DNA of 54,271 nt from Patescibacteria group bacterium (GTDB taxonomy: Bacteria; Patescibacteriota; Doudnabacteria; UBA920). The stretch is from positions 1 through 54,271 of the forward strand of contig WARV01000012.1 in the NCBI GenBank assembly GCA_013387205.1, given 5' to 3'. The notes beneath the pieces were generated by a model. The model ran no database searches, was not told the origin of the DNA, and saw only the letters and a program-made list of their open reading frames with translations. A program made the position numbers and the translations under genes. Of the stretch, positions 41,618 to 53,227 are shown piece after piece (within the stretch, counting starts at the first letter, position 1; every line of letters starts with the position of its first letter).

Positions 41618-42280
41618 ATGAAAATTTTATTAGTTGAAGACGACGAATCAATAGCCAGCGTTATAAAAGCCGGTTTGCAGACCGAGCTTTTTGCTGTAGA
41701 TGTGGCTGACAACGGCGAAGAGGGTTCTTTGCTGGCACGGACTAACGATTACGATCTGGTTATTTTAGATGTCACTCTGCCGAGGAAGAGCGGGTCAGAT
41801 GTCTTGGCTGATATTCGAAATAAAGGAAAGACTGCACCCATTTTGGTACTGTCCGTAGAATCCGAAACAGATTTGAAAGTCAAGATGCTTGATGGTGGGG
41901 CAGATGACTATTTGAACAAACCTTTTTCGTTTAAGGAGCTCATGGCCAGAATTAGGGCCTTACTCCGCCGTCCCAAGAGGATCGAAGCCGAAGTACTTGC
42001 TGTTGATGACTTAAAACTTAATACGAAAACCCATGTAGTAACTAGGGATGGCAAAGATATCCGTTTGACCAGGAAAGAATTTATGCTGCTGGAATTGCTT
42101 ATGCACAATCACGGCGATGTAGTATCCCGGGGCATGATTGATGAGCATGTCTGGGATAACGAGGCTGACCCATTTTCCAAAACTATAGAATCCCATATTT
42201 TAAGCCTTCGCCGGAAGATAAACGAGAATGGGAAAAAGAAGCTGATAGAGACTTTATCGGGAAGGGGCTATAAAATATAG
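41618..42280 (+). CDS. OmpR/PhoB-family response regulator
   Basis: MKILLVEDDESIASVI...DLVILDVTLP...KPFSFKELMARIRALLRR; winged-helix RKEFMLLELLMHNHGDVVSRGMIDEHVWDN...VRDGK/IETLSGRGYKI. Confidence 0.93.
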   Translation: MKILLVEDDESIASVIKAGLQTELFAVDVADNGEEGSLLARTNDYDLVILDVTLPRKSGSDVLADIRNKGKTAPILVLSVESETDLKVKMLDGGADDYLNKPFSFKELMARIRALLRRPKRIEAEVLAVDDLKLNTKTHVVTRDGKDIRLTRKEFMLLELLMHNHGDVVSRGMIDEHVWDNEADPFSKTIESHILSLRRKINENGKKKLIETLSGRGYKI

Positions 42281-44336: not shown

Positions 44337-45074
44337 TCACAAGACAGTGAAGGTGTAGGTGTTTGAAACTGCGCCGTTACCTATTACTTCTTGGATACTC
44401 CACGTTCCGGCCGTCCCAAAAGTAATGGTCAGATTGTACTGTGTTGGGGCTTGCCCCCAAATTTGACTACCAGTGAGAATGGCATAGCCGCCACCAGGGA
44501 AATTTACGCGCACTGCCGTCACCGTTCCTTGGGTGGGCCCATACACTGTAAGAGTGATAGGGCTCGAAGAGTGACTGGGAGTGGCAGGGTAAATATTGTT
44601 GATGTAAGGTGATCCAGGGTACAGGTTGGGGTATATGTAGCCTCGGTCAAAGAAGGTCGCCGAATGGTATACGCCAGTCTGTGTGTAGTTGGAGCCGCAA
44701 TTCTGTTCAGTGACGAGGACTGAGCCGTCGTTGTTCACCTGTGTTACATACGCTACGTGACCGTATGTGCCGTAACTACTCACCCCAATAGTGCCTACCG
44801 AGGGAATATTCGTTACAACTTGGAGTCCGCTAGCACGGGCACTGTTTGCCCAGTTGTTCGCGTTACCCCAGTTGGTGGCAGGATAGCCCCAAAGGTCGTG
44901 CATCATCTGCCACGCCTTCCAGGTACAATTGCCGCCAGGGTATGGCGGGTTGCAACAGGCGTAAATGTTGCCGGGTGATGATTCACCGCCGCAAGTATCG
45001 GCAGCCTTCACTTGATCTGCATAAAAGCAGAGCATAAATACGAACATCACCAAAGTCGTCAGTGACTTCTTCAC
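44337..45074 (-). CDS. Secreted CHAP-domain amidase/peptidase
   Basis: GGNCTWKAWQMM Cys and YGTYGHVAYVTQVN His; SD GGAGG 5 nt before GTG at 45074 (in-frame upstream GTG at 45143 also possible). Confidence 0.85.
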   Translation of the reverse strand: MKKSLTTLVMFVFMLCFYADQVKAADTCGGESSPGNIYACCNPPYPGGNCTWKAWQMMHDLWGYPATNWGNANNWANSARASGLQVVTNIPSVGTIGVSSYGTYGHVAYVTQVNNDGSVLVTEQNCGSNYTQTGVYHSATFFDRGYIYPNLYPGSPYINNIYPATPSHSSSPITLTVYGPTQGTVTAVRVNFPGGGYAILTGSQIWGQAPTQYNLTITFGTAGTWSIQEVIGNGAVSNTYTFTVL

Positions 45075-45140
45075 GTTTTCCTCCAATTGGAATTTTTGGC
45101 GAATCATTTTCAGGATCCGTCGTTTATGCGCAAGCGAGCG

Positions 45141-45205
45141 CACAAGGGAAGTATAACTTCGCGGTGGTAAAATAAAATCAAATAAAAAGTAAAATTTTGG
45201 TAAAA
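45141..45205 (-). promoter_or_regulatory. Module A promoter: four-heptamer array + TATACT -10
   Basis: + strand GGTAAAA-TAAA-ATCAAAT-AAAA-AGTAAAA-TTTT-GGTAAAA (45166-45205); -10 AGTATA (45150-45155), 10-nt gap. Confidence 0.85.
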
Positions 45206-45966: not shown

Positions 45967-46364
45967 AAGAAGATTAAATTAGCTTTGTTAAATAAGATTC
46001 CGGAACTGGCAATAGTATATCATGCCAGTCCCGGGCCGGTCTATGAGCTCATCGCTCAGTTAACCGTGAAGTAAAACAGGCTGGAAAACACGCCATTCTT
46101 AAATTATGCCGCATCCCTGAACGAATAGGGTTTACCCAAAAAAAGCCGGCTTGGTTTATTCTACTTCGGAATTATCCGATCGAGAGATTTTGATGCAGAT
46201 TATGTTTTCCTGCGTGCGGTAGATAATCTTCTTCCTTGCTGGAAAAGTAGAACGAGAATACCATGCTAATCAGACCGAAGAATTGTTCTCTGGAGCTTCC
46301 CTACACCTAAGCTTGGTCCTTTTATTCTTTTGTAGAATTTCTTCCGCCATAAAAATAAATAGGT

Positions 46365-46432
46365 AAGCAAAAGTACAGGGCTACAACTTCAGCTGAGTTG
46401 AGGAGCGAAATTGTAGCCCTGTACTTTTGCTT
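46365..46432. other. 22-bp perfect inverted repeat with 24-nt loop
   Basis: aagcaaaagtacagggctacaa ... ttgtagccctgtacttttgctt. Confidence 0.85.
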
Positions 46433-46563
46433 CTCAAAAAAACGCCGCCTTGCTGTTAACTTTCGATTTACATATATTATTACATTGTGAATTTGTTACA
46501 GCAAGGGTTTTGTGTCCTTTTTCCTATATTGTATTGATTTAATGATAGACAATAATTTTTTTA

Positions 46564-47240: not shown

Positions 47241-48305
47241 CTATTCCGTGACCGTGGACCCTACTGGATAGGAGTAGTAATCCGAGACACCGGCGATATT
47301 GCAAAACTGGTATGCCAGGTTGAGAAAGGCTTGGCCGGTGAAAGGCCGCCGCGTTCCATTGTCAGTGACAATAGACACCTCCGCCCCTCCCCATTGCTGG
47401 ATCAGCCTGCCGTCTGGTTGACTCCTGCCATTGCCAGTAAGGGCATCAATGACGTCGGCTCCGCGTGGGTATCTGTCCATCTCGGCTTGGGATATAATCA
47501 CGACATCTCTGAAGTCAAACCCTCGACCTGGTCCGTACAACTCCCAGAGCCTCTGCGGGCTGGAGATCATCCTCTTTTGGCCGTTCTGGAGGACGTAAAT
47601 AGCAGGGTTGCCATAGACCTGAACAATGGAACCATTGGGATGCAGGGGTAGGTTACCGTAGGGACGATACCTTTCCGCTGTCCCATTAGTACATTTTGGT
47701 GTGTTAGAAGTAATCCAACCCGTGGGATCTGTAAGACCGTTGGTACTCGGCCAAGAGTCATTTGGCATCGCCCCTAAGTTGTTGGAAGGAGGAGTGGTGT
47801 TTGGAACGATTCCGAAGTGGAGGTGATTTCCATTGCTCCAGTAACCGACTCTACCTATCTCAACTCCGCCCGTTACTCGGTCCCCAGCAACCAAGTTGGT
47901 GGTTATGTGCCCATAAAGTGCCAAGAACTCACTGCCGTTGCTTAGCGTATGCTTGATGAGAAGTCCCACATTACCTGTACCCCAATTGTTTGGACTTACG
48001 CTGTAGACCGTGCCGGGAGCTATCGCGTAAACGGGATTATTGAGACCATACATCATATCGTAGCCGATATGATAGTATTCGGGGAGATAGCATCCACCGT
48101 TAGCTGGATCCCGTCCGAGCCAAGTTCCGCAGGTGTAAGGGAAACTGCTCATCCCAGTGGGGTAAAAGAACCCTGTGCCGGTTTGGATAAAGGTCACTTC
48201 TTCTGCTCGAAGCAGATCAACACCGCTTCCAAACAGAAGAAAGAAAGCTGCCATAAACATGACGACGAAACCAACCTGGTGGTTAGTCCTAGAATAGAGT
48301 AACAC
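47241..48305 (-). CDS. Secreted M23-family peptidase with C-terminal surface repeats
   Basis: YHIGYDMMYG...VYAIAPGTVYSV...LYGHI...NHLHFGI; GTG start with GGAGG SD; C-terminal GNPAIYVLQNGQKR repeat. Confidence 0.85.
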   Translation of the reverse strand: MLLYSRTNHQVGFVVMFMAAFFLLFGSGVDLLRAEEVTFIQTGTGFFYPTGMSSFPYTCGTWLGRDPANGGCYLPEYYHIGYDMMYGLNNPVYAIAPGTVYSVSPNNWGTGNVGLLIKHTLSNGSEFLALYGHITTNLVAGDRVTGGVEIGRVGYWSNGNHLHFGIVPNTTPPSNNLGAMPNDSWPSTNGLTDPTGWITSNTPKCTNGTAERYRPYGNLPLHPNGSIVQVYGNPAIYVLQNGQKRMISSPQRLWELYGPGRGFDFRDVVIISQAEMDRYPRGADVIDALTGNGRSQPDGRLIQQWGGAEVSIVTDNGTRRPFTGQAFLNLAYQFCNIAGVSDYYSYPVGSTVTE

Positions 48306-48325
48306 TTTTTATCCTCCTGTGGATT

Positions 48326-48373
48326 TTAGCGAATCATTGTTAGGACTCGCTGTTTGTGCGCAAGTGAGCGCAC
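48326..48373 (-). CDS. Candidate leaderless 15-aa leader peptide upstream of M23 peptidase
   Basis: GTG 6 nt after TATACT; VRSLAHKQRVLTMIR*; near-identical peptide at module A. Confidence 0.5.
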   Translation of the reverse strand: MRSLAHKQRVLTMIR

Positions 48374-48435
48374 AAAAAAAGTATAACCTTGCAGTAGTAA
48401 GATAAAATCAAAGAAAAGATAAAATTTTGGTAAAA
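48373..48435 (-). promoter_or_regulatory. Module B promoter
   Basis: AGTAAGA-TAAA-ATCAAAG-AAAA-GATAAAA-TTTT-GGTAAAA (48396-48435); AGTATA 48380-48385, 10-nt gap. Confidence 0.85.
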
Positions 48436-48604
48436 TTGTGGATAAGGTACATAATAAAATGCACGGGGGTTCTTAGTTGGAAGAGGTATCTTGGTTGTCT
48501 AGCCATGTTAAAATTATGTCGCATCCCCATTGTTTACCACAAAAGAAGCCGGTTCTTCAAGACGCAAATCCTAAAAAGGACGCGCTTTCCGAACCGGCTA
48601 TGGA

Positions 48605-49036
48605 TTATTCTTGGCCCAACAATCTGCGGATTTTATCAAGAAGACGGCTGGAGGTGAACGGCTTACACAGAAAGTCGTGAACCCCGGCTTTAAGAGGGTC
48701 TTCGTTGGTAAAACCCGAAATACAAAGCACTTTTAGGCCAGGCTGGCGCTGCAAAAGCAGTTTTGCCAACTCTATTCCGCTCATGCCTGACATTTGGACA
48801 TCTGTCAGCAGAAGGGAAATCAGTTCTCCGCTGCTGTCGTATTTCATCAATGCCTCTTGGCCGCTTGAAGCTTCAATAACCTGATAACCCTTGGAAAGAA
48901 GCATTGAGCTAACCACTTTCCGGATACTGGCTTCGTCGTCTACCAGCAAGATAATTACGTTTTTTTGCTTTGGCTCAGTATTATTTGAGTCTAAAACCCG
49001 ACAACCTGCTTTTGGCGCATCGAATTGTGCGGCCAT
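48605..49036 (-). CDS. Receiver-domain-only response regulator
   Basis: VIILLVDDEASIRKVVSSMLLSKGYQV...LLTDVQMSGMSGIELAKLL...FLCKPFTSSRLLDKIRRLL; SD AAAGGAGGAG. Confidence 0.92.
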   Translation of the reverse strand: MAAQFDAPKAGCRVLDSNNTEPKQKNVIILLVDDEASIRKVVSSMLLSKGYQVIEASSGQEALMKYDSSGELISLLLTDVQMSGMSGIELAKLLLQRQPGLKVLCISGFTNEDPLKAGVHDFLCKPFTSSRLLDKIRRLLGQE

Positions 49037-49105
49037 TTATTTCTCCTCCTTTGAATTTTGTCGGGCCGTTGTCAGGTTCCGACGTTTACGCGCTCGCTTG
49101 CGCAC
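49037..49105 (-). CDS. Candidate leaderless 22-aa leader peptide upstream of receiver gene
   Basis: GTG 6 nt after TATACT; VRKRARKRRNLTTARQNSKEEK*; stop abuts the ATG. Confidence 0.45.
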   Translation of the reverse strand: MRKRARKRRNLTTARQNSKEEK

Positions 49106-49167
49106 AAGGAAAGTATAACCTTACAATGGTAAAATAAAATCAAAGAAAAAGTAAAATTTTGGTAAAA
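49105..49167 (-). promoter_or_regulatory. Module C promoter
   Basis: GGTAAAA-TAAA-ATCAAAG-AAAA-AGTAAAA-TTTT-GGTAAAA (49128-49167); AGTATA 49112-49117, 10-nt gap. Confidence 0.85.
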
Positions 49168-49398: not shown

Positions 49399-51348
49399 TC
49401 AGTAGTTCTTTAAAAAATCCTGCATTTTGCGGCTTTCATCCAATGCTTGCCTGGCAGCAGCTTCTGGTTTGACCAGTAAGCCTAACAAGACATCCGGTTT
49501 TTCTATAATTGATATTCGGGACAAAGATTGCCGTGCGGATTTAACGTGCTGGAGAATTTTTTTGGCTATATTTGGGATGATTTTATTCCAAAACAATTTT
49601 TGCAGTTTTTGTTCATCGCGTTTGAGGTCTACGGCCTTTTTGTAAAAAATACCCAGAACTTCCGCGCCAACGTAATTGATTCTGCCTGCACGCAAATCCT
49701 CCAGCCAATCATGTGCGTCATCGTTCAATTGGCGGGCAATGAGATAATGCGTGAAAAAACTTTTAAGATTTTTTGCTTCTATTGAGCCGGCAGGATATCC
49801 AATCAACATCAAAATAGTAAGCGGACCCAAGGCGTGCCCCAAACTTTTGTCTGCCAGCTGCTGTAAATTTTTAAAATCAGGGAGATTTTTGGGAACCGAC
49901 AGCTTGCCGTCCATAATTTGAACGCTGCAGTTTTTGCTCTCCCAAGCATTGGCCGCGTCAATATTATTCAAAATACCATTAACTAAGCTGTAATTATTAT
50001 TACGGCCGAACAGCCCTGTATAACAAGCGGTGACTTCCCGCAGACCAATATTAGCCACAGGCAAAAAATCAATATTACCCTCGCCATCAAAAAAGTCATC
50101 ATAAATAGTGTAAGCAATCCAGCCAAAAAGATTTGCCGTCCCCAAATCAATCACCCGCCTGTCCGTGATTCGTTTTCCTCTATCCCCCAAGCTTTCCCTG
50201 AACCAAAAAGGCAAAAGCCCGATTTGCCGGTCAATATCCTTTTCCGTTGTTTTATCCAAAGCCATAAGCGCATAATCTTTTACTTCCGGCGGTAAAGAGG
50301 AAAGTCTTGTATTTGCCTGATTGACAATGCTTTGGTATATTTTTTCATCCTGGGCACGGGAATTGTTACCAGGCTGCTTTGCAGGTTTATCGAGCAGCGG
50401 CAGATATTTCACCAGAGCTTCAAGACAGAAAGCCGTGGTTACACTGCCGGTTCCGGCAAAGCGTTTTTTCCCATTTTCTTCCGGAGCCAAATAAAAGGCA
50501 TTAGCAGGCCAACCTTTGCCATCGAAATTTTGCAAAAGATAATCTATGCTTTTCTCCAGTTCTTGCGGATTTTGGCAATCCAGATTGATTAAGGCGGAGA
50601 CGCTGAGCGCCGTGTCCAATGGATTGCCCCAGGAAAAATCTGGCTGTCTTTTTGAAACCAGGTATTCTGCTAGCTTTTCTTTGTAGCTTCCCTGATAAGA
50701 CCGCGAGATGAAATATGCTATGGGAATAGCTGAATAATATAAGGAGGCAAATTTTTTTGCTTTTATCGCTTGGTCAAAAAATGTGAGTATTTTGGGCAAC
50801 CGCACTTTTTGCATTGAAAGGAAATACGCCACATTGGCATTTACGGCCAAGTCGACATCCTGCCAAACTTTTGGCGCTCTCCTATCTACCAACCAGGTAT
50901 TATAAGGTCCGCCCGGTTCTATTTCCGTGTTTGCCAGCAGTTTAACAATGTGGGCCAAAACTTCTCCGTTGATGGTGTTGGAATTATAGCCGGCCAAAGC
51001 CGTTAATGCACAAAAGGTATCATCCAAATCATCCGGGTATGGAGTTAATCCGGCCTCCTGGGATTTTCTCTGCCAATAGTTAAAAGACCATTGTTGGCTT
51101 TTTTGCGATAACAAAAATCGGACAGCTTTCTGTCTTACCTTATCCGCCTTGGCTGAACGGGGCAAAGAATTTAAGCAATGTAAAATATTGGAAGTAAAAA
51201 AGGGCGTACGGTGAATTCTTGCTTTTTTAAAGTCATCTTGGCGGCCAGAATCCAAACCCAAAAAACTGCCGTCCGATTGCTGTTCCCTAGCCAAAAAATG
51301 GACGCCTTGACTTAAAATTTTGCGGATTTTTCCAGGAATTGTATTCAT
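49399..51348 (-). CDS. Terpenoid cyclase-like fusion: class II-like alpha-toroid (DxDD) plus class I-like domain (DDxxD)
   Basis: TPYPDDLDDTFCALTAL (DLDD at about 51019-51030), IYDDFFDGEGN, RQLNDDAHDWLEDLRAGR; ATG at 51348 overlaps kinase stop as ATGA. Confidence 0.7.
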   Translation of the reverse strand: MNTIPGKIRKILSQGVHFLAREQQSDGSFLGLDSGRQDDFKKARIHRTPFFTSNILHCLNSLPRSAKADKVRQKAVRFLLSQKSQQWSFNYWQRKSQEAGLTPYPDDLDDTFCALTALAGYNSNTINGEVLAHIVKLLANTEIEPGGPYNTWLVDRRAPKVWQDVDLAVNANVAYFLSMQKVRLPKILTFFDQAIKAKKFASLYYSAIPIAYFISRSYQGSYKEKLAEYLVSKRQPDFSWGNPLDTALSVSALINLDCQNPQELEKSIDYLLQNFDGKGWPANAFYLAPEENGKKRFAGTGSVTTAFCLEALVKYLPLLDKPAKQPGNNSRAQDEKIYQSIVNQANTRLSSLPPEVKDYALMALDKTTEKDIDRQIGLLPFWFRESLGDRGKRITDRRVIDLGTANLFGWIAYTIYDDFFDGEGNIDFLPVANIGLREVTACYTGLFGRNNNYSLVNGILNNIDAANAWESKNCSVQIMDGKLSVPKNLPDFKNLQQLADKSLGHALGPLTILMLIGYPAGSIEAKNLKSFFTHYLIARQLNDDAHDWLEDLRAGRINYVGAEVLGIFYKKAVDLKRDEQKLQKLFWNKIIPNIAKKILQHVKSARQSLSRISIIEKPDVLLGLLVKPEAAARQALDESRKMQDFLKNY

Positions 51349-52787
51349 GCGGTGAACTCTACGGTAAACGTTGAACCTTGAACCGGCAGACTTTTTACGC
51401 AAATGTTCCCTCCGAAATCTTTTTCAACGATATTTTTTGTGGTGGAAAGCCCTATCCCAGTGCCTTTTTCTAAATTTTTGGTGGTGAAAAACGGGTCGAA
51501 TATTTTCTCCAAAATATCAGGCGCAATCCCGCAGCCCCAATCCTGTACTTCCAGCCTGACTATATGGTGATTCTCGGCAAGCCGTATTTCCACTGCCCTT
51601 TTCCCGTTATCTTGCGCGGGCATATCGTCATAAGCATCTATGGCATTGGCTACTAAATTAGACAGCATCTGATGGAATTTTACGGGACTGCCGAAAGCCT
51701 GCACTTCGTGCTGCCTGACAAAATTTAATTCCACGTTAGCCTTGCGAGCCTTAAAATCTAACAGTTGCATTACTTGGTGGATTTCCTCATTCAAAGAAAA
51801 AGAGATTTTGGTTTCCTGATGGGACAGCTGTTTGCGTATGGCTCGGATGAAATTTTCCATCCGCCTTGCCGCGGCAATGCTGCCGTCCAAATAACTTTGG
51901 GCTTCTTCCAAATTCTGTCCTTTAATTTCTGCCAGTTTTCTTACGCTGATGGACACGGCAGTCAAAGGATTAATCAGGTCATGGAAAAGCCCGGAGGACA
52001 ACCGCCCGAACTCCGCGAACCGGTATAGCTGCGACATTTTTTCTACCTGCATTCTCTTTAATTCCCGCGTTCGCTCTTCAACTTTTACTTCCAGCAAATC
52101 CCGTTCCCGCTTTAACTCCGCCTCTGACCTCCGCGCCCGGTGCAGAGATTTTTCTATTTCGCGATTAGAGAGCCATGCAATAGTAACAACCAAAATATAA
52201 GTTATGCAAAATACGATGCCGTCGTTCATCCTGAATTGATAGCTGCTCCAGTAAACCTTGTGGGAGCTTAAATCGTTTAATTGTAAATAGGAAAGTGAAA
52301 TTACGGTAATAATGGTTATTGCGGTTATTAAAAAACTGAACCTTGTATTAATTAAGATACTGCTCATTATAATGATAACTGCATAACTTAAAATCATTTC
52401 AGGAAGAAAGACGCCCCAATAATAAGACCCGCTCGTAACAGCAGCGAAGTAAATGGCTAATAGTATAAAAGATGCCCAAATGAATTTACCTTTTTTAGAC
52501 AAAAAATAAAGGAATACAAAAACGCCCAAAATCAGAATGGGCGAAGTGGCTCCAAAACCTCCGAAGTCAGGGTGGTGAAAAATCCTATAAAAATTATTTA
52601 AGTTGACAATAATCAATAGAATTATTACGGCAAAAAGAATTATATTTAAAATAAGTTCTCTGCGTTTTTTATCCTCCTGGACAGATTTAGCTTTAATGAA
52701 TTTTTCAAATAAAAAATGAGCACTTCGATAAATGAAAGTGCTGCTGAAATGCCGGCATTTTTTTAGTAATTCTGCGCGCGTGCCCAT
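51345..52787 (-). CDS. Membrane sensor histidine kinase
   Basis: Six hydrophobic segments, coiled coil, GRLSSGLFHDLINPLTAVS, HATPase N/G boxes (LVANAIDAYDD, DWGCGIAP, GTGIGLS). Confidence 0.93.
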   Translation of the reverse strand: MGTRAELLKKCRHFSSTFIYRSAHFLFEKFIKAKSVQEDKKRRELILNIILFAVIILLIIVNLNNFYRIFHHPDFGGFGATSPILILGVFVFLYFLSKKGKFIWASFILLAIYFAAVTSGSYYWGVFLPEMILSYAVIIIMSSILINTRFSFLITAITIITVISLSYLQLNDLSSHKVYWSSYQFRMNDGIVFCITYILVVTIAWLSNREIEKSLHRARRSEAELKRERDLLEVKVEERTRELKRMQVEKMSQLYRFAEFGRLSSGLFHDLINPLTAVSISVRKLAEIKGQNLEEAQSYLDGSIAAARRMENFIRAIRKQLSHQETKISFSLNEEIHQVMQLLDFKARKANVELNFVRQHEVQAFGSPVKFHQMLSNLVANAIDAYDDMPAQDNGKRAVEIRLAENHHIVRLEVQDWGCGIAPDILEKIFDPFFTTKNLEKGTGIGLSTTKNIVEKDFGGNICVKSLPVQGSTFTVEFTA

Positions 52788-53041
52788 TTTTTTATCCACT
52801 ATGGTAGTGGCTCTGGCGACCAAGGAAGAAGGATATCTTGCGAAAGCGCAAGATTTTGCAACTTTTCCTGTTTTCGCGCAGCCTTATCAGTGAGCAGAGT
52901 CTGCAAAATATTTTCCATATTTTTACTTTCTGGTTTTTAATTTCGTTTTTGTTTCAGGCCCTCGACCTTAGACCCTTAGATCTTACCTACATTAATTGTA
53001 ATGGAAAATTTAAATAATATCAATTACCACGCAAGTTAAGG

Positions 53042-53163
53042 CTTTCGCGTTCCATGCCGTTCCGGCCGGAAGAGCCGGGAATCCGCGCGTTATCAGCAGG
53101 ATAACCCCGGTTCCCGCCCTCGCGAAAATGACAGAAAATCAAGTTTTTCGTAAAACGCGAAAG
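53042..53163 (-). ncRNA. Candidate structured 5' leader RNA of the kinase operon
   Basis: Closing 10-bp stem CTTTCGCGTT/AACGCGAAAG; internal CGGGAA..GTTATC-CTGCT-GATAAC..TTCCCG and TTCC-GGCC-GGAA hairpins; begins ~3 nt after predicted TSS. Confidence 0.5.
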
Positions 53164-53164
53164 T

Positions 53165-53227
53165 CCTCTAAAGTATAGTTTTGCAATGGTAAAATAAAAT
53201 CAAAGAAAAAGTAAAATTTTGGTAAAG
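53165..53227 (-). promoter_or_regulatory. Module D promoter
   Basis: GGTAAAA-TAAA-ATCAAAG-AAAA-AGTAAAA-TTTT-GGTAAAG (53188-53227); AGTATA 53172-53177, 10-nt gap. Confidence 0.85.

Follow-up and report, generated by a model that had tools for sequence, protein, structure and literature searches.

It is proposed that modules A, B, C and D in the window (the whole stretch analysed, 54,271 bases, which is an entire contig of the 1,302,885-base genome) are copies of one promoter under local two-component control. On balance we consider it somewhat probable that transcripts A-C of this local regulon open with RNA that stabilises the message or tunes its translation, the leader being mainly non-coding. 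The modules look like an ordinary, tidy small regulon, in which the TTTTAC repeats, a single OmpR-family regulator, the predicted hairpins and the Shine-Dalgarno (SD) sequences are computed features. The preliminary description had seen in it a regulon controlled by leaderless upstream open reading frames (uORFs); the small regulon, the shared promoter and the separate SDs stand, but not the GTG as the start of a peptide; the GTG probably belongs to a hairpin formed at the first base of the RNA instead of opening a tiny protein.

A promoter present in four copies

Three copies of the pattern TATACT-N6-GTG are present in the window, each on the minus strand, against 0.12 expected, and none of 100 shuffles reached three; a pattern search for TATACT-N6-GTGCG across the 1,302,885 bases returned these three sites alone. 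The -10 boxes are:

45150-45155, minus strand: -10 box A, TATACT (pattern count); TATACT-to-GTG span 45155-45141, GTG at 45141-45143
48380-48385, minus strand: -10 box B, TATACT (pattern count); TATACT-to-GTG span 48385-48371, GTG at 48371-48373
49112-49117, minus strand: -10 box C, TATACT (pattern count); TATACT-to-GTG span 49117-49103, GTG at 49103-49105
53172-53177, minus strand: -10 box D, TATACT (promoter comparison)

The GTG had been placed exactly six nucleotides past TATACT in A, B and C, which is exact in all three, and the probable common start site and shared promoter suggested on that ground are supported, with the start predicted from promoter spacing. Leaders A, B and C align without gaps across +1 to +46. 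The best-conserved part of the modules is the operator block upstream of the start (82-91% identity between copies); identity among A-C is 59-80% in the leader and 47-63% over +47 to +76. Recent duplication of a promoter-leader cassette might explain the likeness of the leaders with no selection on them, and this would be in keeping with the A/B similarity that reaches upstream into a terminator-like stretch and with the clustering of the four operator copies inside 8 kb, with no further full copy genome-wide and no leader homologue in the other genomes searched. We regard this explanation as unlikely, however, as similarity is generally higher in the leader than in the segment behind it, most leader changes preserve base pairs, and the SDs are retained though strong SDs are rare in this genome.

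Operator block and candidate regulator

The four copies of the operator are located as follows:

45162-45205, minus strand: operator A, TTTTAC hexamers at 0, 11 and 33 bp, -62 to -19 (alignment of copies)
48392-48435, minus strand: operator B (alignment of copies)
49124-49167, minus strand: operator C (alignment of copies)
53184-53227, minus strand: operator D, the fourth copy, without GTG leader (genome search with promoter C and alignment)

The block is 44 bp long, and in C and D it reads TTTTACC AAAA TTTTACT TTTT CTTTGAT TTTA TTTTACC, with A and B slightly altered. Its final seven-base unit stops 10 bases ahead of TATACT, and a good -35 hexamer is absent. Repeats phased at 11 bp are the general form of OmpR/PhoB-family sites; the lag-11 autocorrelation of the operator is not above the AT-rich background. 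The PF00486 (Trans_reg_C) model has one match genome-wide, above the curated cut-off, at 42050-42274 of the window, and the gene concerned sits 3 kb from module A:

41618-42280, plus strand: OmpR-family response regulator, REC and Trans_reg_C domains, presumed regulator (Pfam matches)

The product of this gene is the likeliest candidate for the regulator that would bind the TTTTAC repeats. OmpR-family regulators were detected in 14 of the 22 genomes of the family.

The arrangement resembles the WalR/VicR regulons of Firmicutes, with an OmpR-family regulator, 11-bp-phased direct hexamers and hydrolase genes among the targets. The WalR/VicR site is TGTWAH-N5-TGTWAH, with a 5-bp spacer and an 11-bp phase (PMC4168254). 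The repeats described here, in contrast, are TTTTAC-N5-TTTTAC and depart from that consensus at position 2 (T instead of G); there are three or four repeat units rather than two, and the regulon is seen at four local promoters only. The regulator itself was matched at family level, by Pfam.

Downstream genes and their Shine-Dalgarno sequences

The genes behind promoters A-C and their SDs are:

44337-45074, minus strand: gene A, CHAP-domain protein with a signal-peptide-like N-terminus and a GTG start with its own SD (PF05257, E 1.3e-17)
47241-48305, minus strand: gene B, M23 peptidase with a signal-peptide-like N-terminus (PF01551, E 2.2e-12)
48605-49036, minus strand: gene C, stand-alone response-regulator receiver (REC) protein (PF00072, E 6.6e-22)
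45080-45084, minus strand: SD of gene A, GGAGG (sequence)
48313-48317, minus strand: SD of gene B, GGAGG (sequence)
49045-49049, minus strand: SD of gene C, GGAGG (sequence)

A separate SD had been claimed for each downstream gene, and GGAGG is indeed found shortly upstream of the start in A, B and C. Of the 39 putative genes listed for the window, no other has GGAGG within 20 bases of its start, which hinted that SDs might be wholly missing elsewhere in the genome; this idea was dropped on a larger sample (420 kb of the genome, loci L240-L259), where GGAGG or AGGAG precedes the first ATG of 15 of 201 long ORFs (about 7%) versus 2.0 in shuffles. With strong SDs on only about 7% of long ORFs, those of A-C are notable. 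They are also usable, because the 3′ end of the 16S rRNA is canonical (ACCTCCTTTC), the 16S terminating in GGATCACCTCCTTTC; this intact end rules out loss of the anti-SD in this lineage. That the CHAP protein normally starts at the in-frame GTG, with a longer N-terminus, was rejected, since the N-terminus starting at 45074 looks like a signal peptide and has an SD of its own.

Predicted hairpins in the leader RNA

The conserved 46 nucleotides coincide with two predicted hairpins:

45126-45143, minus strand: leader A hairpin 1, from the predicted +1, contains the GTG (pairing and folding)
45098-45121, minus strand: leader A hairpin 2 (pairing and folding)
48356-48373, minus strand: leader B hairpin 1, from the predicted +1 (folding z -4.4)
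48328-48351, minus strand: leader B hairpin 2 (folding z -4.9 including the AAAC linker)
49088-49105, minus strand: leader C hairpin 1 (folding weak alone, z -0.5)
49060-49083, minus strand: leader C hairpin 2 (folding z -1.3 including the AAAC linker)

In hairpin 1, +1 to +6 would pair with +13 to +18, and in hairpin 2, +23 to +30 with +39 to +46. Over the three paralogous sequences on which the leader analyses rest, 39 of 42 pair cells form (92.9%); changes on both sides occur at three pairs, all in hairpin 2, and the variation in hairpin 1 consists of G-U and U-G changes only, all compatible with pairing. Sliding the partners by 1-3 bases drops pairing to 14-45%, a control that favours a structure which was itself drawn from these sequences, and the column-shuffle control was not significant, 78-93 of 500 shuffles matching the observed pairing or covariation (93 of 500 for covariation); the three leaders are therefore suggestive, but no proof, of structure. 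Folding of the leaders against shuffles is strong in B (z -6.0) and moderate in A (z -2.3), and in C it is no better than in the shuffles (z -0.8). Changes between B and C keep the pairs better than random placement does (P 0.02-0.04); between A and B the retention is not significant, random placement equalling it in 23-27% of trials (P 0.23). No credible Rfam match was obtained for the leaders, the window's only match above the gathering score being a tRNA.

The GTG belongs to the 5′ arm of predicted hairpin 1. Its predicted unpaired probability is at most 0.10 in A and B and reaches 0.8 at the first base in C, where the first two bases are often unpaired in the prediction; folding thus predicts no accessible, unstructured start codon but one that is paired in A and B and partly open in C. 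The hairpin-1 loops of A (TCGCTT, within 45126-45143) and C (AAGCGA, within 49088-49105) are exactly or nearly reverse complementary to each other, as though by inversion of the hairpin centre.

The same bases might act as DNA rather than RNA, +1 to +18 (GTGCGC-N6-GCGCAC) being a palindromic repressor site that blocks the start of transcription. Module B does have a perfect palindrome with 6-bp arms at the start site, and loops that are reverse complements in A and C are what a site readable both ways would allow; however, the asymmetric positions of A and C would form wobble pairs (G-U, U-G) in RNA, whereas a DNA palindrome would have mismatches there, hairpin 2 is left unexplained, and genome-wide there are no further copies of the palindrome beside a -10 box. 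This makes a DNA site improbable in our view.

Coding potential of the GTG leader

The leader translations in the preliminary description are correct, including that of B (15 codons, then TAA), and so is the remark that the stop of leader C directly abuts the ATG of the REC gene. In the reading built on them, 70S ribosomes would start at the 5′-terminal GUG and make a short basic peptide (in A, a CHAP protein lengthened at its N-terminus) coupled to the SD-led gene or modulating it. The exact GTG-TATACT spacing in three copies, the abutting stop in C and the at least 15 open codons of all three gap-free leaders would suit such a peptide, but random mutation leaves the frame stop-free in 57-80% of trials, and the openness of the three frames is not independent because they are related.

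The codon signal is weak and inconsistent. Differences at the first, second and third codon positions number 1, 2 and 5 between A and B (45 coding bases), 2, 7 and 4 between A and C, and 3, 7 and 8 between B and C. Against random placement of the differences, the P values for a third-position excess and for peptide identity are 0.07 and 0.10 (A/B), 0.71 and 0.41 (A/C), and 0.17 and 0.04 (B/C). The synonymous A/B bias that had been taken to favour coding is thus seen in five of the eight differences but has no counterpart in A/C, and leader differences do not clearly favour synonymous sites. Peptide similarity moreover ends where the hairpins end, the GTG lies in a predicted stem in A and B, and promoter D lacks it. 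In a sample of 263 genes there is no clear excess of -10-like boxes at 6-7 bases ahead of the first ATG (5 and 1 versus a background of about 3), a rough measure given its reliance on first ATGs. A translated and conserved leaderless peptide is consequently not supported, the hairpins describing the same 46 nucleotides as well or better, although weak coding selection may still act on the three paralogous copies.

A leaderless GTG start is possible in principle, given that genuine 5′-terminal uAUGs lie upstream of SD-led genes in Escherichia coli (PMC4965119) and that a +1 GTG is sufficient for leaderless initiation, and freely used, in mycobacteria (PMC4633059). Like the E. coli uAUG mRNAs, transcripts A-C have a start-type codon at the predicted +1 and then an ordinary leader with an SD; unlike in them, the codon is GUG and lies in a predicted hairpin. 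With the mycobacterial leaderless RTG small ORFs they share the GTG at the predicted +1, but the organism is unrelated and a genome-wide leaderless signature was not detected in the 263 sampled genes. Taken on all these points, initiation at the GUG seems unlikely. Less likely still is a leaderless GUG uORF embedded in the hairpin as a switch, in which opening of the hairpin would give 70S ribosomes access to the terminal GUG, and initiation there would alter use of the downstream SD.

The fourth promoter and the histidine kinase gene

A genome search with promoter C found promoter D at 53170-53225, 93% identical over 56 bases, with a predicted transcript start at 53165. It has no GTG, leader peptide or hairpin 1, so the promoter is common to four transcripts and the GTG to three. 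The fourth promoter apparently drives an unannotated folded RNA (53030-53227, minus strand, promoter included), and the histidine kinase gene lies about 350 bases from its start:

53030-53165, minus strand: strongly folded 136-base RNA that promoter D would transcribe, located ahead of the histidine kinase gene (-54.7 kcal/mol, z -4.7)
51345-52823, minus strand: histidine kinase, coordinates of the listed ORF; translation may in fact begin at 52799 or 52787 (PF02518, E 1.4e-22)

The RNA has no Rfam match, and no counterpart was detected in 60 relatives; a role as antisense RNA to the leaders was rejected, the duplex energies being no better than those of shuffles. A small ORF at 52800-52920 (minus strand), MENILQTLLTDKAARKQEKLQNLALSQDILLPWSPEPLP, has a TAG that overlaps the possible histidine kinase GTG start at 52799, and it is possible that the two are translationally coupled.

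Occurrence in related genomes

A covariance model of the leader detected no homologue in about 240 genomes, the best matches in relatives having E values of 0.06 or worse; nucleotide searches in relatives and pattern searches in the family found none, and viral contigs contained neither leader nor promoter. The operator has one truncated copy in relatives, in genome G001, without -10 box or leader; a search of G001 for OmpR-family regulators found none. There, at about 1440-1540 of L075, a terminator-like stretch and the truncated operator stand directly before a RelE-like/HTH gene pair. A CHAP relative in G007, of the same family, is 39% identical, but the sequence ahead of its gene is unrelated; for the M23 peptidase the family yielded weak partial matches only, so that no orthologous upstream region was available for comparison, and a contig scan with the REC protein found distant receiver domains only.

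A long inverted repeat (AGTACAGGGCTACAA...TTGTAGCCCTGTACTTT) lies at 46362-46435 beside a ATGGCGGAAGAAA-like stretch. L075 of G001 has a similar arrangement just ahead of a phage-portal-like gene, and the repeat in the window may therefore be a phage remnant.

Proposed model

We propose that the OmpR/PhoB-family regulator, most likely the product of 41618-42280, binds the 44-bp TTTTAC block, which covers the poor -35 region, and brings RNA polymerase to the TATACT box, and that transcription would begin at the G six bases past it. Transcripts A-C would then open with hairpin 1 at the first base, and hairpin 2 and an A-rich spacer would separate it from the strong SD. Hairpin 1 may shield the 5′ end from decay and keep ribosomes off the terminal GUG, with no translation from it; hairpin 2 may set the spacing or bind a factor; and initiation would thereby fall to the SD in front of the hydrolase or REC gene. 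Of the roles open to the leader, protecting the 5′ end and guiding ribosomes towards the SD seem the likeliest, given the analogy with 5′-terminal stem-loops. According to Emory et al. (1992), as cited in PMC7509114, a 5′-terminal stem-loop can stabilise E. coli mRNA. The layout is that of the E. coli ompA leader, a stem-loop at the 5′ end, more structure and then the SD; unlike in that case, stabilisation here is presumptive, and the two have no known relation in sequence.

The window holds a self-contained candidate regulon, in which a single OmpR-family regulator would serve four promoters and the genes concerned encode a receiver protein, a histidine kinase and two cell-wall hydrolases. 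The lineage has small genomes, and strong SDs are uncommon in it. Should the leader RNA set expression, it would be a compact example of layered control. Use of the GTG would make it a rare case of a leaderless uORF beyond the well-studied groups, and a GUG-hairpin switch, if real, would be one RNA element both structural and coding in a small-genome bacterium.
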